Shown in pieces: positions 13,592 through 30,507 of a DNA stretch of 61,357 nt. How positions within the stretch are numbered: position 1 is the first letter of the stretch; every line of letters begins with the position of its first letter. The translations under genes and the position numbers were made by a program. A model generated the notes under the pieces. It saw only the letters and a program-made list of their open reading frames with translations. It was not told the origin of the DNA and made no database searches. Source of the DNA: Alphaproteobacteria bacterium (GTDB lineage Bacteria > Pseudomonadota > Alphaproteobacteria > Caulobacterales > Hyphomonadaceae); assembly GCA_018969425.1 (NCBI GenBank), contig JAGWYJ010000018.1:1-61357 (forward strand), read 5' to 3'.

Positions 13592-14287
13592 CTAATAGGC
13601 GTCGGAGCCGAACATAACGGCGGGAACGGCCTTCACGAGGATCCGGAGATCCTTCCCCATCGACCAGGTGCGAACATATTCGACATCCATCCGGACGCGC
13701 TGGTCATAGGTGAGCGAATTACGGCCATTGACCTGCCATAGCCCGAGAACACCGGGACGAACCGAGGTATAGTAACCGAAATCCGCTCCATATCGGAAAA
13801 TCTCGCCCGAAGTGATCGGCCGGGGTCCGATAATCGACATCTCACCCCGGAGAATGTTAATCAGCTGAGGGAGCTCGTCGAGGCTCGTACGCCGCAGAAA
13901 ACGACCGATCGGAGTGATCCGAGGATCCGACCTGAGCTTCTGGTAGAGCGCCCACTCCGCCGCTGCGGCCTGATCCGACGAAAGCAGAGCCTCAAGCCGC
14001 GCAGCAGCGTCGGGCCGCATCGTCCGAAACTTGTAACAGTTGAAAAAACGCCCGTTCGCTCCGCAGCGCTTCTGAGTGAAGATCACAGGCCCGGGTCCGC
14101 TCAATCGGATCGCGAGGCAAATGAAAGCCAGAAGAGGCAGGAGAAAGACGAAAGCCAGAGACGCCAGACCGAGATCCAGGGTCCGCTTCGCAATGCTCGA
14201 ATAAACGGGCGAAGACAATGCGGCCTCAAGACTCAATCCGGACGTAGAGGCGATCCTTTCAGCCTCGACGCCTTGACCGTTCTTCAT
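13592..14287 (-). CDS. exopolysaccharide initiating sugar transferase (undecaprenyl-phosphate sugar-1-phosphate transferase)
   Basis: A 231-residue monotopic phosphoglycosyl transferase that puts the first sugar-phosphate on undecaprenyl phosphate at the inner membrane. After a short leader there is one hydrophobic re-entrant helix (LASLAFVFLLPLLAFICLAI), then the catalytic domain with KRCGANGRFFNCYKFRTM, TSLDELPQLINILRGEMS, IGPRP and the C-terminal RPGVLGLWQVNGRN. The short form lacks the N-terminal CoA-binding-like domain of WbaP/HfsE. ATG 14287 is chosen for its GAGAAAGG box. It is the first step of the polysaccharide made by genes up to 30.5 kb. Confidence 0.92.
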   Translation of the reverse strand: MKNGQGVEAERIASTSGLSLEAALSSPVYSSIAKRTLDLGLASLAFVFLLPLLAFICLAIRLSGPGPVIFTQKRCGANGRFFNCYKFRTMRPDAAARLEALLSSDQAAAAEWALYQKLRSDPRITPIGRFLRRTSLDELPQLINILRGEMSIIGPRPITSGEIFRYGADFGYYTSVRPGVLGLWQVNGRNSLTYDQRVRMDVEYVRTWSMGKDLRILVKAVPAVMFGSDAY

Positions 14288-14640
14288 GCGATAGCCTTTC
14301 TCGCCCGAAGCTCGCGCAGACAAGCAGCAACTACCATGCCAGCGACGTAAGCCTCCCCCTTCCATCGGCTCTGGAAAAACCCTCAGCTCACCACGGTAAT
14401 TATGTGGACGAATGAACCAGGGTCCGCTCTGAGTCGACACTAACTTGGATCATTTTGAGACACCGGCGGTCATCGCTCAATGTGTTTCCCGAGGCGCGCG
14501 AAATCGGAGCGTCAACCCGCCCAAACTTCAACCAGCAGGCGAAGGTCCCGGTCTCTCCTTGCGTCTTGGGCCAGGGTTTGGCTAGGTGAACCCTGCCGGG
14601 TCGCCAGCCCGACTCACTCCCCCGGAAGGATGAAAAGGCC
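14288..14640. other. 353-base intergenic region, divergent promoters expected
   Basis: This lies between the divergently transcribed sugar transferase and sseA. I find no convincing gene, repeat or terminator; open frames here lack a ribosome-binding site and family resemblance. Promoters for both directions are expected but no clear -35/-10 pair stands out. Confidence 0.4.
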
Positions 14641-16697: not shown

Positions 16698-18974
16698 TTA
16701 GTCGTCCGTGTAGTATTTCCGGTAGGATTTGTAGTCGGCAGCGGTATAGGCGTACTGGCCTCGCCGGCGCAGATCCACAAAGGTAAGCGCTACGCCCGCC
16801 ACATTAGCCTTGAACTCGCGCAGGATCTTTAGCGTTTCCCGGAGCGTCGCCCGGTTCGTCTTGCGCCAGCGAGCGGCGACGACAACCTGATCAACCTTTC
16901 GCGTCACAACACGGGTCTCAGCCATAAGCAGAACAGGCCCTGTGTCGATAATGATGAGATCATAGGTCTGCTTGAGCATCGTCATCAGCGCATCAAACGC
17001 TCGGCTGCCGAAGACATCTCTCGGCGTGTGCTTGCGTTCAGCGAGCGGGAGAATATGTAGTCCCGTCGTCTCGTCCGTCACAATCACATCCGACAGCCGG
17101 CTCTCTCCGAAAAGATACTCGAGAAGACCGGCCTCAGCGGGAACGCCGGACACCTCGGTAAGCTGGCGTCGACGGATGTCTCCATCGATCACGATCGTTT
17201 TAGTCCCCGACATCGCAGCCATGCGGCCAAGACAAAAAGTCATGCTCGTCTTGCCCTCATCCGGCAACGAGGAGACGATTGCGACCGTCTTCGCAGGACG
17301 ATCGACATCCGAAAAAAGGATGGAGGCCCTGAGGTTTCGGAAAGCTTCCGCAAAGCCCGAATGAGGCTTTTCGAGGAGATAATCCGCAGGCTTGATCCGC
17401 GCCTTCGCGAAGGTCCCGGAAGGCGCCAGCAACGGAACAGAAACAAGGTAGGGGGCGCCGGTATAATGCTCAACGTCCTCCGGAGATGAAAAGAAGCTGT
17501 CCATCAGCTCGACAATCAGCCCGGCCAGACCCGCGAGTGCGGCCCCGAGAATGAAACCCAGAGCAAGATTGAGCGTCGTGTTGGGAAAGCTCGGCCCTGT
17601 GGGGGTCGCCGCATAAGCGTTGATGAGAGCATCCGCCTCCGTGATGCCGTCAAGCTCGCTGGTCTCCTTGAAGCGATTGAGGAACTCCTCATAAAGCGCT
17701 CGGCTGGCGTCAGCATCACGCTGAAGTTCGTTGAGCACGACGCTCGCGCGATTATTGACCGCAAGCTCGCCCTTCTGCGAATTCAGACGCGCCTGGAGCG
17801 CATTCACCCGCTCGCGGGAAACCAGCACATCCTGTTCAAGGGCCGACACGATCCTTTGCAGTTCCGCGCTGATCTGGCGCTCAACGTCACGCTCCTCGCT
17901 GAGCACGCGGATCACATCGGGATGACCGTCCAGATAGCGCGCTCTCAGATCCGCCTTCCGGCGGAGGATCTCAGCCTGCTGCACACGGAGGGCGCTGATG
18001 TTTCCCGATGCCAGGGCCTCGGAAATCGTATCAACTCCGCCTCCAGCTGCGAGCTGATTCTGAACATTCTGAAGTCTGGCACGCTTTTCGGCCAGATCGG
18101 CCTGCTGGACGGTCAGCTGCGCATTGAGATCCCGAATGGCTTGCTCAGTGAGAGTTGAGCCTTCTGCTGACAGAAGACCCGTACGCGCGCGATGAGCCTC
18201 AACCTTGCTCTCCGCCTCGCGTACCTCGTCGCGCAAGGCGGCCACTCGATCATCCAGCCACGACTTGGCCCGACGGGTCGCGTCGAACTTCATCTCAAGC
18301 TGATTGTCGAGATAAACGTCCGCCACGGTATTGGCGAGCAAAGCCGCCATGTCTGGGGTCGAGCTCGTCGCGTTGATTTCAATAATATAGGTCGGCCCCA
18401 GCCGATTGATCGTGATCGCCCCCTGTACGGATGCGATGACGCCATCAAGTTCAGCCTGTTCCGCCTTCAGGATTTCCTCTTCGCTCAATGACTTGGTCGA
18501 CGCGTCATCGGCAGCTCCTCCGGGCAGAGCCGACTTGATGAAAGATTTGAGACCGCTCTTGAACTGATCCAGCCCGGAAGGCGGAACCCGAGCCGGGTTG
18601 AATTCGGGATTCTCAACAAGGTCCAGCCGCTTGACAACTTTTGACAGAAGAGACCGGCTCTTGAGGATCTCCGCCTCGGTGTCGATCACAGCGCTGTTGG
18701 GCGCGAGGCCCTGCATCACTGCTCCGATGTCGATGACCTGGGAGCTTTGCGTGTTGACGATCACGCTGGAAGTCGCGGTGTAACGCGGTTGCAGGGTCAG
18801 CGTGAACAGCGTCGCGAGGGCGAAGACGCACAGAAATACGCCCGCCATCAGATTGAGGCGACGACGGATCGCCCGGATGACCCCCTGCAGGTCAAGACCG
18901 CCCAGGGAAGCCGAGGGGGCGAGTCCCCCCGCCGGATAAACCGAAGCGCCGTCCGGTGAGTAGGGCATGTTCAC
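16698..18974 (-). CDS. polysaccharide co-polymerase with tyrosine autokinase domain (Wzc/ExoP type)
   Basis: A 758-residue inner-membrane protein controlling chain length and export. The Wzz region has a membrane helix at about 42-62, long coiled-coil stretches (about 200-420), and a second helix near 465-490 after a proline-rich YAATPTGPSFPN. The C-terminal BY-kinase has Walker A SSLPDEGKTS (about 568-577), Walker A' TIVIDGD (593-599) and Walker B IIIDTGP (674-680). The tail is a tyrosine cluster (YAYTAADYKSYRKYY) for autophosphorylation. Downstream of wza and the beta-barrel gene on the same strand. Confidence 0.94.
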   Translation of the reverse strand: MNMPYSPDGASVYPAGGLAPSASLGGLDLQGVIRAIRRRLNLMAGVFLCVFALATLFTLTLQPRYTATSSVIVNTQSSQVIDIGAVMQGLAPNSAVIDTEAEILKSRSLLSKVVKRLDLVENPEFNPARVPPSGLDQFKSGLKSFIKSALPGGAADDASTKSLSEEEILKAEQAELDGVIASVQGAITINRLGPTYIIEINATSSTPDMAALLANTVADVYLDNQLEMKFDATRRAKSWLDDRVAALRDEVREAESKVEAHRARTGLLSAEGSTLTEQAIRDLNAQLTVQQADLAEKRARLQNVQNQLAAGGGVDTISEALASGNISALRVQQAEILRRKADLRARYLDGHPDVIRVLSEERDVERQISAELQRIVSALEQDVLVSRERVNALQARLNSQKGELAVNNRASVVLNELQRDADASRALYEEFLNRFKETSELDGITEADALINAYAATPTGPSFPNTTLNLALGFILGAALAGLAGLIVELMDSFFSSPEDVEHYTGAPYLVSVPLLAPSGTFAKARIKPADYLLEKPHSGFAEAFRNLRASILFSDVDRPAKTVAIVSSLPDEGKTSMTFCLGRMAAMSGTKTIVIDGDIRRRQLTEVSGVPAEAGLLEYLFGESRLSDVIVTDETTGLHILPLAERKHTPRDVFGSRAFDALMTMLKQTYDLIIIDTGPVLLMAETRVVTRKVDQVVVAARWRKTNRATLRETLKILREFKANVAGVALTFVDLRRRGQYAYTAADYKSYRKYYTDD

Positions 18975-19046: not shown

Positions 19047-20291
19047 TTAAGGATAGATCACGAGAGCGGCGCTGAGAATGTTCTGATCGAAGTCTCTTTC
19101 CGACTGAGCGCCGCTCGAATCCTGCGTCCTCATCATGTAGGACAGATCGAGGCGAGCGCGACGGTTGAGTTTATAGCCCAGTCCGATCCCGAATTCACCC
19201 TGATCATCGGTACGATCGATATCCTGGAAATCAATGCTGCGGGAGCGCGCCTCCCCGAACAGCAGGACATTGCGTCGAAGCTCATGATCGATCCGCACGC
19301 CGAACGCCGTATTGTAGGCGGTGCTCGAATTGACCAGACCCGGGTCGAAAATGTCGCGCTGGCCTGTAAACGTCACGGTCGTCAGCTCTGTCGGAAACCA
19401 TTCAAGGCGACCGTCGACCGACATACCGTCCGTGTCGGGACGCGAGAGTGCGTCCTTCTCATCCTTTACGTACCCAACCGCAATATCCCCTCGGAACGGG
19501 GCGGCCAGTTCAAAGTTGAGACCAATCTGACCCGTTGTGCGGCGACCGTCGCGACTGGGATTGAGAGACGTCCCGACGAAGTCATAGTCCTGATCCGCCA
19601 CTCGTCCCTGGACATAAACGGCGACATCAGGGGAGATCGCGTAGGAAGCCCGTCCCGCGGCATAGGTCTCGGTCACATCCCGGAAATTCTGGGCGGTGTT
19701 GAAATCGCTGGACGCGGAACCCACGCGTCCCTCAACCTGAAAACGATCCCGACGAAAGGCAGCCAGCAGGGCGGTGTCTGCACGATCGTACTCAGTCAGT
19801 CCCGCTCCTGTTCGCGCAGCCGGCTCATAGCGCTGCTCGGTGATGCGCCCGCCGTCAATCGACCCGCCCACCCAGAACTCGCGGGTCACATCAAGCCGAC
19901 CGCGCAGGAAGCCCGTGAAGTCGGTCGAGGACTCTTCGCCCTGATCCAGATACTCGCGATGATCCGCGCGGACGCCGGCGGAAATTTCATGAACCGACCA
20001 TGTGCTCTTGAGCTCAAGCTCAGGGGTCGCCCCGATGATCACATCATCGGTCGCGTTGGACGCCTCCGCATAGATATTGTCGTTGGATCGGACGGCGAGC
20101 CCCAGACGCGACCGTATCTCGAAAGCTCCCGCCCGAAGCGGAAGCGGATCAAACTCGGGTTGAGGGCGCTCTGCCGCGGAAACATAACGATTGCGGTCGA
20201 ACTGACCAGGGGCCTTTTGAGCGATGGCCGGAGCCGCCGCGAACCCGGCGAGGGCCAACGCCAGCGCCAGAGAAGAAACAACGGATTTCAT
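19047..20291 (-). CDS. exopolysaccharide-locus outer-membrane beta-barrel protein
   Basis: A 414-residue protein with a clear signal peptide (LALALALAGFAAAPAIAQ) and repeated amphipathic strands ending in the aromatic-poor terminus SAALVIYP. It reads like the BBP2 beta-barrel family (PF10082) found in many alphaproteobacterial polysaccharide loci: LGLAVRSNDNIYAE, LRGRLDVTREFWVGG, FGIGLGYKLNRRARLDLSYM. It may act as an outer-membrane pore or anchor working with the Wza-type lipoprotein, which is inference from position. It lies 72 bases upstream of the autokinase gene in one minus-strand operon. Confidence 0.85.
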   Translation of the reverse strand: MKSVVSSLALALALAGFAAAPAIAQKAPGQFDRNRYVSAAERPQPEFDPLPLRAGAFEIRSRLGLAVRSNDNIYAEASNATDDVIIGATPELELKSTWSVHEISAGVRADHREYLDQGEESSTDFTGFLRGRLDVTREFWVGGSIDGGRITEQRYEPAARTGAGLTEYDRADTALLAAFRRDRFQVEGRVGSASSDFNTAQNFRDVTETYAAGRASYAISPDVAVYVQGRVADQDYDFVGTSLNPSRDGRRTTGQIGLNFELAAPFRGDIAVGYVKDEKDALSRPDTDGMSVDGRLEWFPTELTTVTFTGQRDIFDPGLVNSSTAYNTAFGVRIDHELRRNVLLFGEARSRSIDFQDIDRTDDQGEFGIGLGYKLNRRARLDLSYMMRTQDSSGAQSERDFDQNILSAALVIYP

Positions 20292-20882: not shown

Positions 20883-21515
20883 TCAGAAAAAGCGCTCCCG
20901 AATGCGGATCGTATCCCCAGGCTTGACGAGCGTCGAAGGTGTCAGCGTCACTTCCCGCTCATCGGGACTGTTCGTGCTCTTGATAAAGATACGCCGCTTG
21001 TCGGCGCGATAGGTGAAATCCCCCGCGCTGGCGATCGCGTTCATGACAGTAAGACCTGAAATATAGGGATATTCCCCAGGTTTGTTGATTTCGCCGAGGA
21101 TATAGTACGGGCGGTAATTCATCACCTCGGCGCTGACCTGCGGCTCGCGAACGAAGCCATTCTTCAGCTTGACCTCGATCAGGCGCTGGAGCTCGCGCAG
21201 GGTCAGATCCTTGGCCGTGACCTCGCCGATCAGCGACATCGAGATCACACCCTGCCCGTCGACGATGAAGTTGCCCGAAAGCTCAGGCTCGCCGAAGACG
21301 GTGATCCTGAGCTGATCGCCGCTGTCGAGACGATATTCGGCAAGACCCGCCGGGGCTGTCGGGGTTGCGATCGCCTGACCGAGCGACCCGGTCTGAGGTG
21401 CGGCGGAAACCTGTTCGGGGGCTCTTGGCGCCGGATCGGCAGGAGCGGGGGACGCGCAGGCCCACAAACCGACTACGCTGGCGAACGCCAGAACGGCTTT
21501 TCTGATACTGATCAT
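20883..21515 (-). CDS. polysaccharide export lipoprotein (Wza/GumB family)
   Basis: A 210-residue outer-membrane export protein. The lipobox GLWAC puts lipid on C20. The PES domain follows (YRLDSGDQLRITVFGEPELSG, IDGQGVISMSLIGEVTA-like) and then a SLBB domain (YYILGEINKPGEYPYISGLTVMNAIASAGD). At 210 residues it is shorter than Wza (about 380), so it lacks extra SLBB repeats and the C-terminal outer-membrane helix; the nearby beta-barrel protein could supply the pore. Its ATG overlaps the phosphatase stop as ATGA, so the two are translationally coupled. Confidence 0.94.
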   Translation of the reverse strand: MISIRKAVLAFASVVGLWACASPAPADPAPRAPEQVSAAPQTGSLGQAIATPTAPAGLAEYRLDSGDQLRITVFGEPELSGNFIVDGQGVISMSLIGEVTAKDLTLRELQRLIEVKLKNGFVREPQVSAEVMNYRPYYILGEINKPGEYPYISGLTVMNAIASAGDFTYRADKRRIFIKSTNSPDEREVTLTPSTLVKPGDTIRIRERFF

Positions 21516-22432
21516 CCTCGTCCCCCGGACTGTCCCTGGGCCGCCGGCCCTGTCTCAACGCGTGATCCTGTCATGAAAAACTCCACACTCTCTCCCTGAA
21601 AGCGCACAGCCGTCAGACGGCCGCTGAGATAAGCCCCCGTGTCGATACCGATGCGACGGGAATCCCGATAGGGCCTTGCAGCAGGCGTATGCCCGTGAAC
21701 GATGACAGCCTCGAGGGGTTGCCGGTCTTCGAGAAACTCGTTTCGGATCCACAGAAGGTCCCGTTCGGTCTGCGCCTCCAGCGAAATACCCGGCTTCACG
21801 CCGGCATGAACGAACAGATAATCCCCTATCCTCACGCTCAGGTGAAGACCTCTCAGAAACTCCAGATGGGCGGGTGGAGCGAGAGCCGCCAGCTCCTCGC
21901 GCACTCTCTCCCACTCCTCAGGACTCGTCCGGTTACGCGGAGGCCGCACTCCGTACGACACCAATGTTTCGACCCCTCCGAACTCCGCCCATCTGGGACC
22001 GACCCGGGCATCCTCGAGAAACTGCAGCATAGCCGCCTCATGGTTTCCCTTCAGAAAATAGGTCTCATAGCGGCCCATGTCGCGCGCCATGAGCACATCC
22101 AGCACATCTCGCGATTGAAATCCCCTATCGACGTAGTCTCCAAGAAAGACCAGAACCGGCTTTCCTGAAAATCCGCCCTGGCTGACATCCTCATCAATGA
22201 CCTTGAGCAACCGGAACAGGAGATCAGCCCGTCCATGGATATCGCCGACGGCGTAAACCCTTCGTCCCTCAGGAATGGAGGCGGTCCGACCCGGCGTCCA
22301 GACCGGACGGCGCTCTGGAGGGGGACGCGCCATGCGACGGGCCAGCTCGTCCACCCACGCTCCGAAATCCTCAAGAAGGGACCGGATGGCGTCGGCGGCC
22401 GCTTCCCGAAGACGAGACAGACCGATGGTCAC
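21512..22432 (-). CDS. PPP-type metallophosphoesterase (serine/threonine phosphatase family)
   Basis: A 306-residue phosphatase. The full PPP signature is visible: GDIHG at 63-67, GDYVDRG at 98-104, GNHE at 129-132, then HAGV and VHGHTP, giving the two-metal centre. GDYVDRG marks the phosphoprotein phosphatase branch rather than general calcineurin-like esterases. A 50-residue N-terminal region with Arg/Pro-rich sequence has no match. It is the first gene of the minus-strand export operon and is coupled to wza by ATGA, which suggests a role in controlling the polysaccharide machine, perhaps opposing the tyrosine kinase. That role is inference. Confidence 0.9.
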   Translation of the reverse strand: MTIGLSRLREAAADAIRSLLEDFGAWVDELARRMARPPPERRPVWTPGRTASIPEGRRVYAVGDIHGRADLLFRLLKVIDEDVSQGGFSGKPVLVFLGDYVDRGFQSRDVLDVLMARDMGRYETYFLKGNHEAAMLQFLEDARVGPRWAEFGGVETLVSYGVRPPRNRTSPEEWERVREELAALAPPAHLEFLRGLHLSVRIGDYLFVHAGVKPGISLEAQTERDLLWIRNEFLEDRQPLEAVIVHGHTPAARPYRDSRRIGIDTGAYLSGRLTAVRFQGESVEFFMTGSRVETGPAAQGQSGGRG

Positions 22433-22682: not shown

Positions 22683-23861
22683 ATGATGCGTATCGCCTTT
22701 TTCGGACATGATGCAGGCGACGCCGCAGTGCGCCGGCGCGTTGAGGGGTTCCGACGGGACGGCCTCGAGGTGATGAGGTTCATGATGCGCCGGAGCGATG
22801 CCACGCGCGAGGATGACGCAGACATCGACCTTGGACGAACCTTCGACGCCGACTACCTTCAGAGACTGACCCGCATAGCCTCAGGGGCTCGCATCGCAGC
22901 CTCTCAGAGGGCGCTTCTGGCGAGTTCAGACGTCATCTATGCGCGCAATCTCGACATGCTTGCGACAGCCTTTCTTGCGAAGTCGTGGACCGGATTATCC
23001 ACACCGGTGGTGTACGAATGCCTGGACGTTCACCGCCTTCTGACGCGCTCCGACATGATCGGATCAGCGATGAGACGTGTTGAGGGATCGCTCCTGAGGA
23101 AGTGTCGGCGCCTTGTTGTCTCATCGGACGCCTTCATCCTTCGCCATTTCGAGCCGCGTTACGGGAACCTGTGTCCAGCGGTCCTGATCGAGAACCGGAT
23201 GGCGCCAGGATCCGCCTATGGCCCTCGCCCGGGACAAGAGCCCGGACGCACCGGGCCCCTTCGCATCGGCTGGGTCGGTGTGCTCCGCTGCGCACGCAGC
23301 CTCGATTTGATGAGATCTCTCGTCCGTGAGTTTGGGGAGGCGATCCGCGTCGATCTCCACGGCACGCCCGCGCTGACGGAGATCCCTGATTTTCATGAGC
23401 GCGTCGCTGAGACGCCAGGCTTGATGTTTCACGGCCGTTACAAGGCGCCGGAAGATCTGAGACGGATCTACGCCGATCTCGACGTTGTCTGGGCGGGAGA
23501 TTTCATGGAAGCAGGCTTCAATTCGCTCTGGCTTCTTCCTAACCGCCTGTACGAAGGCGGATATTACGGTGTTCCGCCCATAGCGCCGAAGGGTACGCGG
23601 ACCGCGGAATGGATCGACAGGGTCGGGGCCGGCTTCACCCTCCCGGAGGATCTCTCCCGATCCCTTCCCCAACTCATCGGGCGGATGATTGAATCGCGCA
23701 CAGAGATCGCCGCGCGGCGAGAGCGACTGCTGTCGCTGCCCGACACCGCATTCATTCAGCCGGAGGGCGAGCTTCGGACCCTGATTGAAGAGGCGCTCAA
23801 TCCGGCGACGCGATCGGCGCGGACGGCGTCCATGCTCACGGCTGCAGAATGCGCCCGGTGA
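22683..23861 (+). CDS. glycosyltransferase (GT4-like, exopolysaccharide)
   Basis: A 392-residue GT-B enzyme. It starts MMRIAFFGHDAGDAAVRRRV at 22683 (a second ATG follows at 22686), and the long open frame upstream is arginine-rich and not protein-like. The N-terminal domain has VIYARNLDMLATAF and PVVYECLDVHRLL; the C-terminal domain starts LRIGWVGVLRCARSLDLM and has ADLDVVWAGDFMEAGFNS, LLPNRLYEGGYYGVPPIA, the usual acceptor and nucleotide-sugar region. Donor and acceptor are unknown. The last 13 bases overlap the next gene, so the two are co-translated. Confidence 0.88.
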   Translation: MMRIAFFGHDAGDAAVRRRVEGFRRDGLEVMRFMMRRSDATREDDADIDLGRTFDADYLQRLTRIASGARIAASQRALLASSDVIYARNLDMLATAFLAKSWTGLSTPVVYECLDVHRLLTRSDMIGSAMRRVEGSLLRKCRRLVVSSDAFILRHFEPRYGNLCPAVLIENRMAPGSAYGPRPGQEPGRTGPLRIGWVGVLRCARSLDLMRSLVREFGEAIRVDLHGTPALTEIPDFHERVAETPGLMFHGRYKAPEDLRRIYADLDVVWAGDFMEAGFNSLWLLPNRLYEGGYYGVPPIAPKGTRTAEWIDRVGAGFTLPEDLSRSLPQLIGRMIESRTEIAARRERLLSLPDTAFIQPEGELRTLIEEALNPATRSARTASMLTAAECAR

Positions 23862-25213
23862 AGGCAAAGGAGTCCTCTCGCCTGAGGCGGCGAATCGCCG
23901 GTCCGGTTCTTGGCGTGGCGGTTCTGCTTCTGGCGGCAGAGCTCCTGGGAGGCGCAACCTCCCCACTCGTCAGTCTTTCAATATCAGGCGGCTGTCTCGC
24001 CCTGACACTGCTCGCAGCGGCGCTCGCAGGTCCCTCCTTCATCACTCCGGGACTGACCCTCGCCGCCGTCCTTGCGACGGTGGCGGCGACCCTTCTGATC
24101 ATCATCCACGGAGAGGCGGCTGCGCCGGCGGCGACCGCGAGTCTGGCGGGCGGCGGACTCTGGCTGATCGGCGCGCTCGCAGGCCGCCGACCCGCTGACG
24201 CCGACTTTGCGGTCGACGCGGTTATCTGGACCTCATTCCTGTTCTGCTGCGCTCTCCTTGTTCTCGCCTCGAACGGGCCACTGCGTCTGGGGGCCTCACT
24301 ACTGGAGGCGCTGCCCTCTCCAGCCGACATTCCTCTTCTCTTCACGGTGTTCCTGATCATGGCGGCCGGACGCCTCGTTCAGATCCATGGACGGGCGCCG
24401 AGGATCGACCTTGCCCCCGTAATCTGGACCGAGGAGCTCATTCACCGCGGCGTTGGAGCGCTTCTTCTCGCTGGCGTCTCGGCGACAGGACTTTTTCTGT
24501 GCGCATCCGCACAGGGAGCGCTTACGGCGCTGGCGGGAATTTGTCTGATCGTGTGCTTGCGACCGACGGAACAGGACAACGATCGAAGACGAGTTCAGGG
24601 TCTGACCCTCGCGGGGCTTCTTGGCCTTGCAGGCCTCGTGGCGCCATTCGTTGATGCGAAGACCTTTGGAACAGAACCTTTCAGCCTTGTCGCCCGTTCA
24701 GGTGAACGCTGGAGCGTCTATGTGCGGACCGTCCCGGAAGCGCTGATCACTGGTCATGGCCCCGGAGCCATAAGAGAAATCGCGGATAGGTCGGCAACCC
24801 TCAGCAATGCATCGCTTCTCGCGGCTCCCGGCGGTGCGCGGAATGCCGTCATCCACTACCTTGTCCAGTGGGGAATAACAGGCGCGATCATGATGACGGC
24901 GGGACTTGTGTTCGTTCACCGGCCGATCACTGGGAACCAGGCATCCCCTCGCTTCGCCCGCAGCGCGTCACGAACAGCTCTGGCGACGGGCTCTGCGATT
25001 CTCTTGTGGGGGGTGACCTCCTCTTCCCTCGAGACGCCGGTGATCGGGTGGCTTTATGTCTTTCTTTTGGGACTCGCCGCAGGATCTGACGTCCCGCAGC
25101 GTGCAGGCAGCCGCACCATGGCTGGATCTCCCGTCCGAACGTTGCCATCATCGGGGCCCGAAGCCGGTTTTCCTGCGGTTCCGGGCCCACCCCGCAGCGG
25201 AGTCGACCCATGA
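23849..25213 (+). CDS. O-antigen ligase/polymerase-like membrane protein
   Basis: A 454-residue protein with about ten hydrophobic segments and a periplasmic-type loop (about 275-330, TEPFSLVARSGERWSVYVRTVPEALITGHGPGAI). The pattern fits Wzy polymerases and WaaL ligases: GHGPGA and a following conserved histidine region (NAVIHYLVQWG) match the ligase domain. It would polymerise repeat units on the periplasmic face. Between glycosyltransferase and parA genes, it overlaps the first by 13 bases and the second by 4. The proline-rich tail after the last helix (about 410-454) is unusual for the family. Confidence 0.8.
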   Translation: MRPVKAKESSRLRRRIAGPVLGVAVLLLAAELLGGATSPLVSLSISGGCLALTLLAAALAGPSFITPGLTLAAVLATVAATLLIIIHGEAAAPAATASLAGGGLWLIGALAGRRPADADFAVDAVIWTSFLFCCALLVLASNGPLRLGASLLEALPSPADIPLLFTVFLIMAAGRLVQIHGRAPRIDLAPVIWTEELIHRGVGALLLAGVSATGLFLCASAQGALTALAGICLIVCLRPTEQDNDRRRVQGLTLAGLLGLAGLVAPFVDAKTFGTEPFSLVARSGERWSVYVRTVPEALITGHGPGAIREIADRSATLSNASLLAAPGGARNAVIHYLVQWGITGAIMMTAGLVFVHRPITGNQASPRFARSASRTALATGSAILLWGVTSSSLETPVIGWLYVFLLGLAAGSDVPQRAGSRTMAGSPVRTLPSSGPEAGFPAVPGPPRSGVDP

Positions 25214-26130
25214 CAGCCATCACCGCAGCGATCGCCAACCTGAAAGGAGGCGTGGGAAAGTCGACAACGACCGTCATGCTGGCCGACGGCCTCGCCTATT
25301 TCTACGGGATGCATGTTCTTGTGATCGATCTCGATCCTCAGGCCAACTCAAGCCAGATGCTCCTGACGGAAGAAGGCGTTCAGGAAGCCTCGGAACAGGG
25401 AAAGGGAGGCCACCACCTTCTCGCCCAGTTCATGGCGGGATCTCCCCCATCCGCGTCGCCGTTCATCATGCCCAATGCAGTGACTCTGGAAGAGCTCCGC
25501 ATCGCCGAAGAGCAGGACGAACGCAGGGGATGGATTTCTATTCTGCCGTCGCATCCGAAGCTGCGCATGTCGGAACTGACCCTGGAAGAGGAGTGGTACG
25601 GGAGATCCGGAACGCCTACGACCTTGTCCGAAGCGCTGGCGAAACATTTTCGGATCGCATTCGAACCGCTTCTGCCCCTCTACGACGTCATTCTTCTGGA
25701 TTGCCCCCCTCACCTGTCGCCTCTTGCGCGCGCCGGCCTGTCGATAGCCGACGTGTTCCTGACGCCGACCATCGCCGATAGCGTTTCGACATGGGGAACC
25801 AAACAGTTTTCAGAGTGGGTCGGGCGCTTCATCGCGCCCGACCTGCCGTCCCGAAACTTTATCCTGATCACCCGTTTCCGGGACACGCGCTATTCGCGTC
25901 AGATTGTTGCGGATCTGCGCGATATCTATCTGAAAGATCGCTGGTTCGGACCCGTGATTCCAGAGTCGGTGCACGTCCTCAACGCGATGGACCGGGCGGC
26001 CCCCGACAGCTACAACACGTTCAAGGGAAAGTATGGCGGTGTCCGGACGGACGTCCGACGGCTTGCAGAACGCTTCACCGACTTTCTTGGCCAGAGAACA
26101 GGCGCGACATGGCAGAAGATACGAGACTGA
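25210..26130 (+). CDS. ParA family ATPase within the polysaccharide operon
   Basis: A 306-residue deviant-Walker ATPase. The P-loop LKGGVGKSTT carries the ParA-type first lysine (K12), Walker A' is VLVIDLDPQANSS, and Walker B is VILLDCPPHLSP. This is the ParA/Soj branch that dimerises on DNA and positions cargo, not the BY-kinase branch, since no tyrosine tail is present. It overlaps the polymerase-like gene as ATGA and is overlapped by 22 bases by a small partner gene, so it is translated with polysaccharide genes, not with parB. Suggested job: spatial placement of the synthesis or export machine (inference). Confidence 0.92.
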   Translation: MTAITAAIANLKGGVGKSTTTVMLADGLAYFYGMHVLVIDLDPQANSSQMLLTEEGVQEASEQGKGGHHLLAQFMAGSPPSASPFIMPNAVTLEELRIAEEQDERRGWISILPSHPKLRMSELTLEEEWYGRSGTPTTLSEALAKHFRIAFEPLLPLYDVILLDCPPHLSPLARAGLSIADVFLTPTIADSVSTWGTKQFSEWVGRFIAPDLPSRNFILITRFRDTRYSRQIVADLRDIYLKDRWFGPVIPESVHVLNAMDRAAPDSYNTFKGKYGGVRTDVRRLAERFTDFLGQRTGATWQKIRD

Positions 26131-26477
26131 CCCCCGCGGAGTATCTCGACCGCTTCTTTGACGAGCTCCGCGCGGAAGTGCGGTCAAACCCGAAGCTGGC
26201 GGCGCGCCTGACGCGCGCCCTGGGGGGAGAAGTGGTGTTCGAAGACGAACACAAAGCGGACCTCGCGAACCCATATCTGCTCGCCGCATCCGGATCGAAG
26301 TCGAAGTTCTACTCGGTGTTCTCCGGACTGAAGCCAAACGAGATCCGGCGCGTTCTGCGCGACAACAATCTGGCGACATCGGTCGATGTCAGGGGAAAGA
26401 CCGCCGAAGAGCTGGTGGACATGCTCTTTCGCAGAGCCTCGTCAAAGATCAGCGAACGTAAATCAACGTTCTTCTGA
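26109..26477 (+). CDS. small partner protein of the polysaccharide-locus ParA, unknown
   Basis: A 122-residue soluble protein. It begins with an acidic helical part (TPAEYLDRFFDELRAEVRSNPKLA), has a central SGSKSKFYSVFSGLKPNEIRRVLRDNNLATSV segment resembling a helix-extended-loop-helix (SAP-like) DNA-binding unit, and ends with a basic tail (RRASSKISERKSTFF). The gene starts inside parA and ends in a 15-base tail-to-tail overlap with the acetyltransferase gene. By position it fills the place of ParB or McdB in ParA systems. I know no assigned function; the SAP-like reading is tentative. Confidence 0.8.
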   Translation: MAEDTRLTPAEYLDRFFDELRAEVRSNPKLAARLTRALGGEVVFEDEHKADLANPYLLAASGSKSKFYSVFSGLKPNEIRRVLRDNNLATSVDVRGKTAEELVDMLFRRASSKISERKSTFF

Positions 26478-27174: not shown

Positions 27175-28260
27175 TCAGCGAAAAACCGGTGGGGCCGCAG
27201 CGACGCGAGACCGCCCAGGTCGCGCCCCCAGAAGCGCCGCCTGACGGAAAAAGCCCGCCGCCCAGGCCATATGCATGATCCCGGAGGCGGGCCCGGCGAA
27301 CAATCCGCACGGCGAACCCAGCTTCAGCGCGCCCCAGATCGAGGCGCACAAGAGTGCGAAGAGATAAAACGCCGGAGCCGCAAGGCTCCACGGCCATAGC
27401 GGTGAAATCGCCAGACTGAGACAGCAGACAAGAAGGACGGCAGGCGGGATCATCTGGCGGGCGCGCGGGACATCCCTGTGTTTCAGAAGAGTGCGCGCAC
27501 GCCCTCGGCCGTAATTGTAGTACTGACGCGCAAGCGCCCTGGCGCTCGAACGGGGAAGGTACTGAAGGCGGATCTCCGCATCGAGAAAGATGCGTCCGGA
27601 CGCGGCTCGCAGCCGACGGTCAAACTCCGCATCCTCATTATGCGAAAAGGTCTCATCATATCCGCCGACCTGGAGAAACGAAGCAAGATCAAAACCAGCA
27701 TGATGACCCGTATCGACAAAGCCCGATCGCCGTCCCCCGCGATGGGCCGAACCGCCGGATCCGAGAGGCGTGTCGACGATGAGCGCATTCGCCCTCTGGA
27801 AACATGTCCGACCAATCGCATCCATGGGCGTGACGAGGGATTCCACTCCATTCCTGACGAGACTATCAGCGACATCCGTCACATAGCCGGGCGGATATAG
27901 AGCATGCGCATCACAGCGGATCAGAACACGTCGATTTTCGGAAAACCGACGGGCGACGAGATTGACCGCAGCGGACTGTAACCGAGCGGGATTCTCCACA
28001 AGACGCAGATTGGCATGAACGTTCATCATCGCGCGCACGATGTCGGGCGTGCCGTCATCGCTGCCGCCGTCAGCCACAACGAACAGAGCATCGGCCAGAC
28101 GATCATCGCCAGTCAGAAGATCACGAAGGCATGTCTCGATATGAGACGCCTCGTTCAGAACAGGAATGGCCACCAGCACATCACATCCCTGGACCGCTCG
28201 CCGTGCAGATCCGGAAGGGTCATCCGCCGCACCATTCGACTTTCCCTGCGTGACCTCCAT
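27175..28260 (-). CDS. glycosyltransferase family 2, ExoA-like (exopolysaccharide)
   Basis: A 361-residue GT-A transferase like ExoA of succinoglycan synthesis, which adds a beta-1,3 glucose. Motifs in order are LVAIPVLNEASHIETCL, ADGGSDDGTPDIV, the metal site region RCDAHALYPPGY, HNEDAEFDRRLR (ED) and QYYNYGRGRARTLLK. The C-terminus has about three hydrophobic segments (LLVCCLSLAISPLWPWSL onwards) anchoring it to the membrane. It follows the 254-residue membrane protein gene by 60 bases and precedes the GNAT gene by 25, all minus strand. Confidence 0.9.
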   Translation of the reverse strand: MEVTQGKSNGAADDPSGSARRAVQGCDVLVAIPVLNEASHIETCLRDLLTGDDRLADALFVVADGGSDDGTPDIVRAMMNVHANLRLVENPARLQSAAVNLVARRFSENRRVLIRCDAHALYPPGYVTDVADSLVRNGVESLVTPMDAIGRTCFQRANALIVDTPLGSGGSAHRGGRRSGFVDTGHHAGFDLASFLQVGGYDETFSHNEDAEFDRRLRAASGRIFLDAEIRLQYLPRSSARALARQYYNYGRGRARTLLKHRDVPRARQMIPPAVLLVCCLSLAISPLWPWSLAAPAFYLFALLCASIWGALKLGSPCGLFAGPASGIMHMAWAAGFFRQAALLGARPGRSRVAAAPPVFR

Positions 28261-28320: not shown

Positions 28321-29085
28321 CTAACCGGGAGCGACAGCCTGAGGCGGATCAGACACTTGCCGGCGCCCGGCGGACGCGCGAGCCGCATCTTCGCGATAGG
28401 CGTCGAACGGGATGCCCTCGCGCCGGGCCATCGCCCTCAGATCGGCGAAGAACTCAGCATCCTCCCCGCTTCGCCGAAGAAGCTCGGAGTCGCGAAAGGC
28501 CTGCCGTCTGAGACTGTCCGGAATATCGGACCAGTGAGCCAGAACAAAACTGAACCGCCATCGGACAAGATCCGGGCTGCAGACAGGACACAGCTCCATG
28601 GACCGGCCCAGAGCCTCGACCGCGCGATCTGGCAAGGGCTCGCCGCCTGCTGTCGCCGACTGAGAGAGACTGTAAGCCAGGCGGGCCCAGACGAAGGGAC
28701 GGGCGCTATCACGCTCAAGAACCTGCTCGCTCGCCAGGGCGGCAAGGTCTGTAGCCAGAGGATCGGCCGCCAGAACAAGCTCGGAATACGCCTCATATGC
28801 ATCCGCAGAAGCGCCTCGGGGCATGGGACGAGACAGAATATCAAGCGCCGATCGGCCCTCGGCGGTGACGATCTTATGCGTGGCGAAGGCGCGTCCTGTC
28901 GCAGCAAGGTTCCCCAATAAGGCGATAAAGAGCATCACGAGAAGAACAGCCCAGCCGCCGATTGCGCCGAGTCGGCGCCTTTGGTCTCCGGCTCGCTCGG
29001 ACCGACCGCCATCGACCTCAGGGACGGCGTCTGCGCCCCGGTCTCGTGTCTCCTCGCTGACCTGCGTCCAACCCTGTTTGATCAT
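28321..29085 (-). CDS. membrane-anchored protein of the polysaccharide locus, unknown
   Basis: A 254-residue protein starting MIKQGWTQVSEE at 29085. An acidic/basic N-terminal cytoplasmic segment of about 40 residues precedes one membrane helix (about 43-62, GWAVLLVMLFIALLGNLAAT). The remainder, probably periplasmic, is helical with TPR-like spacing (AYEAYSELVLAADPLATDLA, VWARLAYSLSQSATAGG, a CPVC pair, VRWRFSFVLAHW). No family is recognised. It leads the ExoA-like/GNAT operon and diverges from the third glycosyltransferase, so a scaffold role in the export complex is possible. Confidence 0.75.
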   Translation of the reverse strand: MIKQGWTQVSEETRDRGADAVPEVDGGRSERAGDQRRRLGAIGGWAVLLVMLFIALLGNLAATGRAFATHKIVTAEGRSALDILSRPMPRGASADAYEAYSELVLAADPLATDLAALASEQVLERDSARPFVWARLAYSLSQSATAGGEPLPDRAVEALGRSMELCPVCSPDLVRWRFSFVLAHWSDIPDSLRRQAFRDSELLRRSGEDAEFFADLRAMARREGIPFDAYREDAARASAGRRQVSDPPQAVAPG

Positions 29086-29178
29086 TTCGGTGTTCAGAAA
29101 CCCTGCATCAAGGATAGATCGGTGGGGCAAGCGGCGTCGCGGCCATGGTCTTGCATGGTCCGGACCACAGGGGAAGAC

Positions 29179-30507
29179 ATGCGCCGAGGCCGTGGAACAT
29201 CTCTTGCGGGGATTATCGCCGACATGACCGTCAGACAGAAGCAGCCTCAGGAGGCGAGCGGAACGCATCCTGTCAATGCCCCCTCAGCGAACCGGAGATG
29301 GGCGAACATGATCGTCGCTCGCCAGCTCGATGACATGAACGCCGGCAACACCGCCTACCTCCTGGTTCTTCTCAAAACCATGAGACGCGGCGGCCTGTCT
29401 GTCCGCATCGTGTTCGCTCCGCGCAGATCCTTCGGCAACCGGCCTTTCATGCGCATCCACCCTCAGGTTGAGGCGGAAATTGAAGATGTCGTATGTCCGC
29501 AAAGCGTGCGGATCGCCGGGACCTACATCTCACTCTCTCCGACGGTATGGGGACGGTTCATTATCCGGCTGATCCGCGAAGCGCGAAGACGGACAGGAGG
29601 ACACGTCGCGATACGAAGCCTCCTGTCAGCGCCTCTCGACCCGACCGAAGCCTCGGCGACCGCCTCGGCTTCGGATCGCCATGCGTGCGCGCTGGTCGTT
29701 GCGGAGTATTCCAACCTCGCCCCTACTCTGAAGCTGATGAAGACGCGAGCCGTGAAGTCTGTTTTCCTGCATGATCTGTTCTCCCTGCGGGCCCAGGCCT
29801 TCAGGTCGCGCGGAGAAGTTCCGGACCACGCCGATATCTCGCTGGAGGAGGAGGCCGCCTGGGTTCGGCCGGCCGAGCTGCAGATCTATGCCTCCGCAAA
29901 TGAGCTGGCGACGCTTGCTCCCATGACACCCGGCGCCAGAGGCGTCTGGATGAGACCGGACGTGCCGGACTATCCGGATGTTCGGACCGATGACGGTCCT
30001 GCGCGGGCCGTCTTTCTGGGAACGCGTCACGCGGGCAATACAGACGCGCTGCGTCATCTCCTTGACGACATCTGGCCTCGGGTTCTGGCCCGAAGCCCCG
30101 ATGCCCAGCTCTGGATAGCAGGCTCGACCTGCTCAGTTCTGACCCCGGAGGATCATGCCCGACCAGGCGTACGGGCGCTCGGCCGGGTCGGAGACCTGGC
30201 CTCGATCGGCGGTCCCGCCTCAGTTGGACTTGCGCCGACCCGGATCGCCAGCGGAGTCAGCATCAAGGTCGCAGAGTACCTTCGCCTGGGTATGCCCTGC
30301 ATCACCTATCCTGTAGCCCTGGAAGGGTTTGGACAGGCCCTGGACGACCTGGCGGATAGGGTCGAGGATACGGACGCCTTTGCTGCGCGTCTGGCCGATC
30401 TGCTGGAGGACGAAACCGGTCGCTCGAAACGCAGCCGAAAGGCCCGTGACGAGATCGGCGCGCGCCTCGACAACGAAGAGCTGACAGCCGTCTTCCGGGC
30501 CCTGTGA
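29179..30507 (+). CDS. glycosyltransferase (GT1/GT4-like, exopolysaccharide)
   Basis: A 442-residue GT-B enzyme. The ATG at 29179 has an AGGGGA box five bases upstream; the frame open before it is a poor match. The N-terminal half has WANMIVARQLDDMNAGNTAY and SVFLHDLFSLRAQAF. The C-terminal half has AVFLGTRHAGNTDALRHLL, SPDAQLWIAGSTC, LAPTRIASGVSIKVAEYLRLG and GMPCITYPVALEGFG, the typical donor-binding region. Sugar specificity is unknown. It diverges from the 254-residue membrane protein across a 93-base promoter gap and ends the polysaccharide locus on this side. Confidence 0.87.
   Translation: MRRGRGTSLAGIIADMTVRQKQPQEASGTHPVNAPSANRRWANMIVARQLDDMNAGNTAYLLVLLKTMRRGGLSVRIVFAPRRSFGNRPFMRIHPQVEAEIEDVVCPQSVRIAGTYISLSPTVWGRFIIRLIREARRRTGGHVAIRSLLSAPLDPTEASATASASDRHACALVVAEYSNLAPTLKLMKTRAVKSVFLHDLFSLRAQAFRSRGEVPDHADISLEEEAAWVRPAELQIYASANELATLAPMTPGARGVWMRPDVPDYPDVRTDDGPARAVFLGTRHAGNTDALRHLLDDIWPRVLARSPDAQLWIAGSTCSVLTPEDHARPGVRALGRVGDLASIGGPASVGLAPTRIASGVSIKVAEYLRLGMPCITYPVALEGFGQALDDLADRVEDTDAFAARLADLLEDETGRSKRSRKARDEIGARLDNEELTAVFRAL

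Follow-up and report, generated by a model that had tools for sequence, protein, structure and literature searches.

The cargoes positioned by ParA/MinD ATPases include plasmids, chromosomes, flagella, chemotaxis arrays and carboxysomes. In ParA-based positioning systems, a small partner is usually encoded directly downstream of the ATPase (PMC8262871). Cellulose is the only polysaccharide named together with such an ATPase in the available portion of a review, which describes BcsQ as the ParA of cellulose secretion and reports it at the cell pole (PMC9178275). BcsQ, a SIMIBI ATPase, forms a 2:2 complex with the short partner BcsR, and this complex is essential for secretion (PMC7439463). In pneumococcus, CpsD binds ParB, and the capsule locus is linked to chromosome segregation (PMC4574921). 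Here we describe a ParA-type gene and an overlapping gene for a small partner protein, which lie together in an exopolysaccharide (EPS) locus of an alphaproteobacterium of the Hyphomonadaceae. The DNA analysed, hereafter the window, is a stretch of 61,357 nucleotides, namely contig 78 of an assembly totalling 3.25 Mb in 91 contigs. The pair and its overlaps are as follows.

25210..26130, plus strand: ParA-type deviant Walker A ATPase (P0002), 306 residues, from motifs, AAA_31, alignment and predicted fold
26109..26477, plus strand: partner (P0001), 122 residues, with acidic N-terminal helices and a basic C-terminal helical half and tail
26109..26130, plus strand: 22 bases shared by the ParA and partner genes, from the coordinates of the open reading frames (ORFs)
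25210..25213, plus strand: ATGA overlap of the stop of a Wzy-like gene and the start of ParA, from ORF ends and starts

The association of ParA and partner with the EPS locus is real, conserved and rather specific. The reading that we favour, tentatively and at slightly under an even chance, is that an ATP-driven ParA/partner pair serves the Wza-Wzc-Wzy machine: ParA would cycle on the nucleoid, the partner would couple it to the export complex, and the machine would thereby be placed. If ParA/MinD ATPases do serve Wzy-type loci through a conserved pair of this kind, their known cargoes would gain a further class. A partner family that has no name would acquire a function open to testing, and there would be a way to approach the question of where on the cell surface these bacteria place their polymer. 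(Many of their relatives are stalked or budding.) Among the open-access literature matches listed, none dealt with a free-standing ParA that has a small partner and is encoded in a Wzy-type locus; this is a soft negative, as most subscription papers and all bioRxiv preprints lay outside the search. The word polysaccharide does not occur in the available portion of a paper on several ParA/MinD systems in one cell (PMC10241942).

We surveyed 105 genomes of the family, with a ParA query at E 1e-45, a profile for the partner and a Wzc match at E 1e-60. The EPS ParA is present in 37 of these genomes and the partner in 38, with both in 36, ParA only in one (G150), the partner only in two (G115 and G125, where it adjoins a different ParA of 33-34% identity) and neither in 66. 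(The partner profile matched 40 genomes; we subtracted G720 and G722, in which the match is a paralogous partner beside a second ParA type, ParA2, described below.) Fisher's exact test for ParA against the partner gives 1e-24 across all genomes and 2e-7 within genus g3, both values being inflated by shared descent. Within g3, the partner accompanies ParA in 14 of 15 ParA-bearing genomes and occurs in 0 of the 14 without ParA; wzc is found in all 15 of the former and in 3 of the latter. Across the family, a Wzc match occurs in 87 genomes, 36 of which have ParA, and only one of the 18 genomes lacking Wzc has ParA (G712). Moreover, 31 of the 37 genomes with the EPS ParA carry wza or wzc no more than 20 kb from it on the same contig. 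The counting of partner, ParA and wza, wzc or wzy neighbours that a sequence-only reading of the window had suggested thus ties the pair to the locus. Contig ends truncate four of the 37 ParA loci (G229, G680, G686 and G284), and the fragments in G229 and G686 retain a Wzy-like gene together with either a glycosyltransferase or a sugar transferase.

The window's own genus carries ParA in 11 of 15 genomes. The partner query matches 26 of 299 genomes sampled from the order, and the EPS-partner profile matches 2 of 385 sampled from the class, namely the window's own genome and one doubtful case; these class-wide searches score at most 11 or 12 candidates per genome, so absences there are soft. 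The six ParA relatives in a collection of named genomes are all from metagenome assemblies, four of Hyphomonadaceae and two assigned only as alphaproteobacterial. One genome (G100, locus L060) has wza, wzc and further genes of the locus, but frame changes or stops break both ParA and partner there, which may reflect loss of the pair or an assembly error. In another (G362, L115), a simple gene finder called no ParA.

The 22-base overlap is repeated exactly in 19 genomes (the window's genome counted), so the arrangement is more than chance; it is missing in G680 and G681, where the two genes abut. In genus g3, on the other hand, ParA and partner genes are parted; 12 genomes have both on one contig, at a distance of 6-39 kb. 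Five of the 14 g3 partner matches lie within about 100 bp of wzc (G140, G046, G145, G175 and G060), and five others lie about 1.4 kb from wza with a phosphatase gene between (G065, G085, G135, G269 and G685). The partner is therefore kept beside wzc or the phosphatase-wza segment in 10 of 14 g3 genomes while ParA is elsewhere, and this is the clearest hint we have of contact between the partner and the machine. In G175 (L062) and G060 (L063), the partner ORF that adjoins wzc is cut to 74 residues, comprising the C-terminal half only, which may mean that a minimal partner needs no more than this half, or else that the gene is decaying.

Several observations weigh against the reading that we favour. 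The linkage was counted among related genomes, and is thus non-independent evidence. Four of the 14 g3 partners (G026, G056, G684 and G686) are 11-22 kb from wzc, and that of G056 sits among genes unrelated to polysaccharide. G150 has ParA without a detectable partner. In genus g8 (G279 and G712), the contigs, as far as they extend, place the pair outside the wza/wzc locus: it adjoins a single glycosyltransferase and is near ribosomal protein genes (labels by inspection), wza and wzc are on a different contig in G279, and neither gene is matched in G712 (80% complete). In addition, 51 of the 87 Wzc-bearing genomes lack the EPS ParA, including 41 of genus g2, where Wza is found in 40, Wzc in 41 and the EPS ParA in 0 of 42 genomes. 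Even within the window's own genus there is a genome, G716, in which wza and wzc are present and the EPS ParA is absent. Since the machine exists without the pair in many genomes, the pair counts as an accessory found in certain lineages of the locus, not as a part common to all of them. Finally, known ParA/MinD partners employ an N-terminus that is charged and positive (PMC10241942), whereas the window partner is basic at its C-terminus and acidic in its N-terminal half; at a guess, the basic C-terminal tail may stand in for the positive N-terminus.

The g8 pair, with its lone glycosyltransferase and ribosomal neighbours, could be taken to mean that this is an ordinary orphan ParA pair, present in the locus by chance and with a cargo unrelated to polysaccharide, and a paralogous pair at a housekeeping locus of the window's genome (see below) points the same way. 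However, at least three different arrangements preserve the linkage to wza/wzc, including those in which the two genes are separated, and ParA and wzc in g3 are mostly present or absent together. We consider a chance placement improbable.

By motif and predicted fold, the product of 25210..26130 is a ParA. The sequence-only reading had described a complete ParA with a deviant Walker A motif and no tyrosine tail, coupled by ATGA to the gene upstream and sharing 22 bases with a 122-residue gene, and all of this agrees with our analysis. The Walker A sequence reads N-L-K-G-G-V-G-K-S-T, and N10, K12-T19, D40, D42 and D164 are invariant in an alignment of 35 ParA rows, 26 of them (the query included) from the EPS group. 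The protein thus has the KGGxxK[S/T] Walker A, the signature lysine and the Walker A' and B aspartates of a ParA (K12, K17, D40, D42 and D164), where the allotment of the aspartates to Walker A' or Walker B is our assumption. Pfam AAA_31 scores 93 bits (cut-off 27). The AlphaFold model has a pLDDT of 92.6 and a pTM of 0.92, and the closest solved folds are those of Soj, ParA and McdA (best Foldseek E 4e-15). Pfam MipZ also scores above its cut-off (41.4 vs 20.7 bits), with the best stretch confined to residues 8-50, in the P-loop region. A MinD-like C-terminal amphipathic membrane helix is not apparent on inspection of the alignment and model, and the g3 rows of the alignment end no more than about 20 residues past the last helix. 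Judged by inspection, this suits an ATPase of the nucleoid type better than one of the MinD type.

The presence of a ParA/MinD-type ATPase and a small partner within an exopolysaccharide locus is shared with BcsQ-BcsR, and this precedent (PMC7439463) raises the alternative that the pair is an assembly or activation factor, in which the ATPase and partner stabilise or recruit export parts at the membrane and nothing is placed. The window's Wzy-like gene is closely coupled to ParA, which would suit such a role, as would the conserved 22-base overlap. Yet the many Wzc-bearing genomes without the EPS ParA show that, in general, such machines do not require ParA, and the likeness to BcsQ itself is limited. 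The NCBIfam BcsQ models score far under their cut-offs on ParA (41.1 vs 157.85 and 17.4 vs 399 bits), and Pfam CBP_BcsQ passes (25.9 vs 21.3 bits) but only over residues 7-44, in the P-loop region. The BcsR-BcsQ structure entry is the 49th fold match of the model. BcsQ has RGGVGTT (PMC9178275) where the window ParA has KGGVGKS, so that no RGGVGTT-type motif is present and the BcsQ label was rejected. BcsR, moreover, is a 7 kDa protein encoded before bcsQ (PMC7439463), whereas the window partner, of 13.8 kDa, is encoded after ParA, and the BcsQ-BcsR polymer is enterobacterial cellulose whereas the locus here is of Wzc/Wza/Wzy type. We regard an assembly or activation role as rather unlikely.

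The bacterial tyrosine (BY) kinases CpsD and Wzc likewise have a ParA-related fold and are encoded in capsule loci. Unlike them, however, the window ParA has neither a tyrosine tail nor a Wzz part, and the EPS locus has its own Wzc. A BY-kinase label was thus rejected (no C-terminal tyrosine cluster; TIGR01007 15.2 vs 108 bits).

As the sequence-only reading had stated, the partner falls outside every named family in the libraries searched: there is no Pfam family at E 0.1, no PHROGs match at E 1, no PADLOC match at E 0.01, and a single NCBIfam match of 17.9 bits that is far under its 420-bit cut-off. Searches of solved structures with the partner profile (E 1) and of known folds with the partner model (E <0.001) returned nothing, nor did a search of plasmids with the partner itself (E 0.1). 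A phage origin was rejected (0 matches in 50,697 phage records), as was a defence system (PADLOC is empty for the partner, and only the P-loop region of ParA matched). The model is predicted to be all-helical, with a mean pLDDT of 78 and a pTM of 0.53. Residues 1-60 have a pI of 4.78 and a charge of -4.4, and residues 61-122 a pI of 10.35; the basic tail that had been noticed from the sequence, residues 105-122, has a charge of +3.5. In 23 aligned EPS partners, D14, R21, E23, P28, R33 and A37 are conserved in the N-terminal half, N54, L88, A89, D93 and R109 are also invariant, and P55 is nearly so. (Distances between ParA proteins and between partners correlate with r 0.86 over 20 pairs, a value with no control for species relatedness that we did not use as evidence.)

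The layout resembles that of McdA-McdB, in which a ParA-like ATPase has a small partner gene directly downstream, and McdA is among the fold matches. Furthermore, copies of McdB occur in cargo operons without an adjacent ATPase gene (PMC8262871), much as the g3 partners do here. However, McdB proteins are disordered in part, are low in hydrophobicity and have a C-terminal tryptophan that never varies (PMC8262871). The partner has a helical model and no tryptophan, and the McdB label was rejected for it. As for the charged N-terminus expected of an McdB encoded beside its ATPase gene, the first 60 residues of the partner are acidic (charge -4.4). With ParA-ParB-parS, the similarity lies in the Soj/ParA fold and motifs. 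A ParB label was rejected for the partner, since there is no ParB-family match in Pfam and no relevant NCBIfam match. On the features tested, the pair differs from BcsQ/BcsR, McdAB and ParABS.

The C-terminal half of the partner nevertheless suggests a further alternative, a DNA-linked role in which a SAP/HeH-like half lets the partner bind DNA, and the pair acts on a chromosomal site, such as the EPS genes, by positioning or regulating it instead of the protein machine. A domain scan of 25 members gave SAP in 7, HeH in 4 and Rho_N in 2 (best E 0.0021). When 10 relatives were rescanned, every match was below its cut-off, with the SAP, HeH/LEM and Rho_N ones on the C-terminal half, which is also basic. 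As no score reached a curated cut-off in this rescan, we do not assign the partner to any of these domains. Relatives of the module beside ParA on plasmids (two in Methylocystis and one in Rhizobium) would also fit such a role. Against it, no parS-like repeat is evident in the 7.1 kb searched around the pair, the partner has no ParB-family match, and the pair is chromosomal in two single-contig genomes (G190 and G065). The pair is thus not used for plasmid maintenance there, and plasmid partition was rejected. A role centred on DNA seems to us unlikely.

The profile search that the sequence-only reading had proposed yielded no named family; it did reveal a wider group of partners. The genome of the window has a second pair (G000:C76, L092:9140-10359), consisting of ParA2 and a 122-residue partner (partner2) whose gene shares 4 bases with that of ParA2. 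The two pairs are alike in gene order and partner length, and their partners are homologous. However, ParA2 is only about 30-32% identical to the EPS ParA, and its neighbourhood is one of housekeeping genes (glmU-, rpiA- and asd-like, labelled by inspection). A ParA2 and its partner stand side by side in all nine loci read, from genera g1, g4 and g6 (L092-L095, L107, L100 and L129-L131), and ParA and partner are also adjacent in both loci read from another family of the order (L105 and L106). The EPS pair has in common with this module a homologous small partner encoded directly after ParA. Aligned with each other by hhalign, the EPS-partner and other-partner alignments match with a probability of 98.3 and E 1.3e-14 over 105 columns. 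A combined partner profile adds three further and one doubtful genome among the 385 of the class, and ParA adjoins in G570 and G674. In a ParA tree of 40 rows (23 EPS and 8 ParA2, with chromosomal ParA left out), EPS and ParA2 rows are split with a support of 100/99, and the EPS group is separated from all other rows with 88/66.

As the partner groups are homologous and the second pair is at a housekeeping locus, the partner superfamily is not EPS-specific. The sequence-only reading had named a partner widespread beside unrelated ParA genes, far from polysaccharide loci, as the pattern that would count against it; we find this pattern for the superfamily, and not for the EPS branch. From these comparisons, the EPS pair is an EPS-linked branch of a wider module of ParA and a helical, weakly SAP/HeH-like partner, without a named family.

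Placement of the export machine by ParA and partner is, in our view, the likeliest mechanism. ParA would most likely dimerise on ATP and bind the nucleoid non-specifically, and the partner would most likely contact ParA and stimulate its ATPase, releasing it from the nucleoid. The partner would most likely use one of its halves to couple ParA to the inner-membrane export complex, either Wzc or proteins beside it. In this way the EPS machine could be distributed among particular sites, or held at them, and divided among the daughter cells. The polar placement suggested in the sequence-only reading found no support, while the two-protein ParA system that it envisaged for this machine is tied to the locus by co-occurrence and linkage. 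A more specific version is possible, although we would lean against it: a ParA-type nucleoid ratchet that both positions and distributes a Wzy-type EPS machine through a new two-part adaptor family, having common ancestry with the partners of a conserved alphaproteobacterial ParA-partner module. If so, the partner alone, and even the 74-residue C-terminal module of G175 and G060, would sit on the Wzc complex.

The window genes around the pair form a Wza/Wzc/Wzy-type EPS locus, with the following members.

13592..14440, minus strand: initiating sugar transferase (PF02397)
16698..18974, minus strand: Wzc-type co-polymerase with a kinase-like AAA_31 domain (Wzz, GNVR, AAA_31)
19047..20291, minus strand: outer-membrane beta-barrel, BBP2_2 / EpsL-like (PF10082; TIGR03014 below cut-off)
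20883..21515, minus strand: Wza/OPX polysaccharide export protein (PF02563)
21512..22432, minus strand: calcineurin-like phosphoesterase adjoining wza (PF00149), kept in the locus
22686..23861, plus strand: glycosyltransferase-like gene upstream of Wzy, start codon uncertain, kept in the locus
23849..25213, plus strand: Wzy/WaaL-like membrane protein, 454 residues; its positional counterpart in L108 passes Wzy_C
27175..28260, minus strand: family 2 glycosyltransferase (PF00535)
28981..30507, plus strand: group 1 glycosyltransferase (PF13692)

The identification of the upstream gene as Wzy/WaaL-like, made in the sequence-only reading, stands indirectly. A Pfam scan of the window protein (23849..25213) is empty, while the gene at the same position in L108 passes Wzy_C (34.6 bits vs a cut-off of 31.7) and that in L102 falls just short (31.3). 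The glycosyltransferase-like gene at 22686..23861 also gave an empty Pfam scan, and its relative in L108 has only glycosyltransferase matches below cut-off. When the gene 5' of ParA was queried at 17 loci, 10 gave an answer: seven have a Wzy-like gene on the same strand and three a transferase on the opposite strand. At the other end of the pair, the 3' ends of the partner gene and of a GNAT acetyltransferase gene on the opposite strand share 15 bases (26463-26477).

Other ParA genes were encountered as well. A third ParA type, 37-39% identical to the EPS ParA, is found in L096, L097, L098 and L099 (G279, G284, G110 and G165), with no partner match within the surrounding 20 kb; in L096 and L097 it adjoins fabI-like and membrane glycosyltransferase-like genes (labels by inspection). 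In L101 (G711), L103 (G712) and L059 (G125), ParA belongs to yet another clade and has an EPS-like partner next to it, away from polysaccharide genes and near isoprenoid-type genes or uvrB (also labelled by inspection). Finally, in a genome of the other family of the order mentioned above (G028), two ParA-partner pairs are arranged in tandem (L064:8400-11267).

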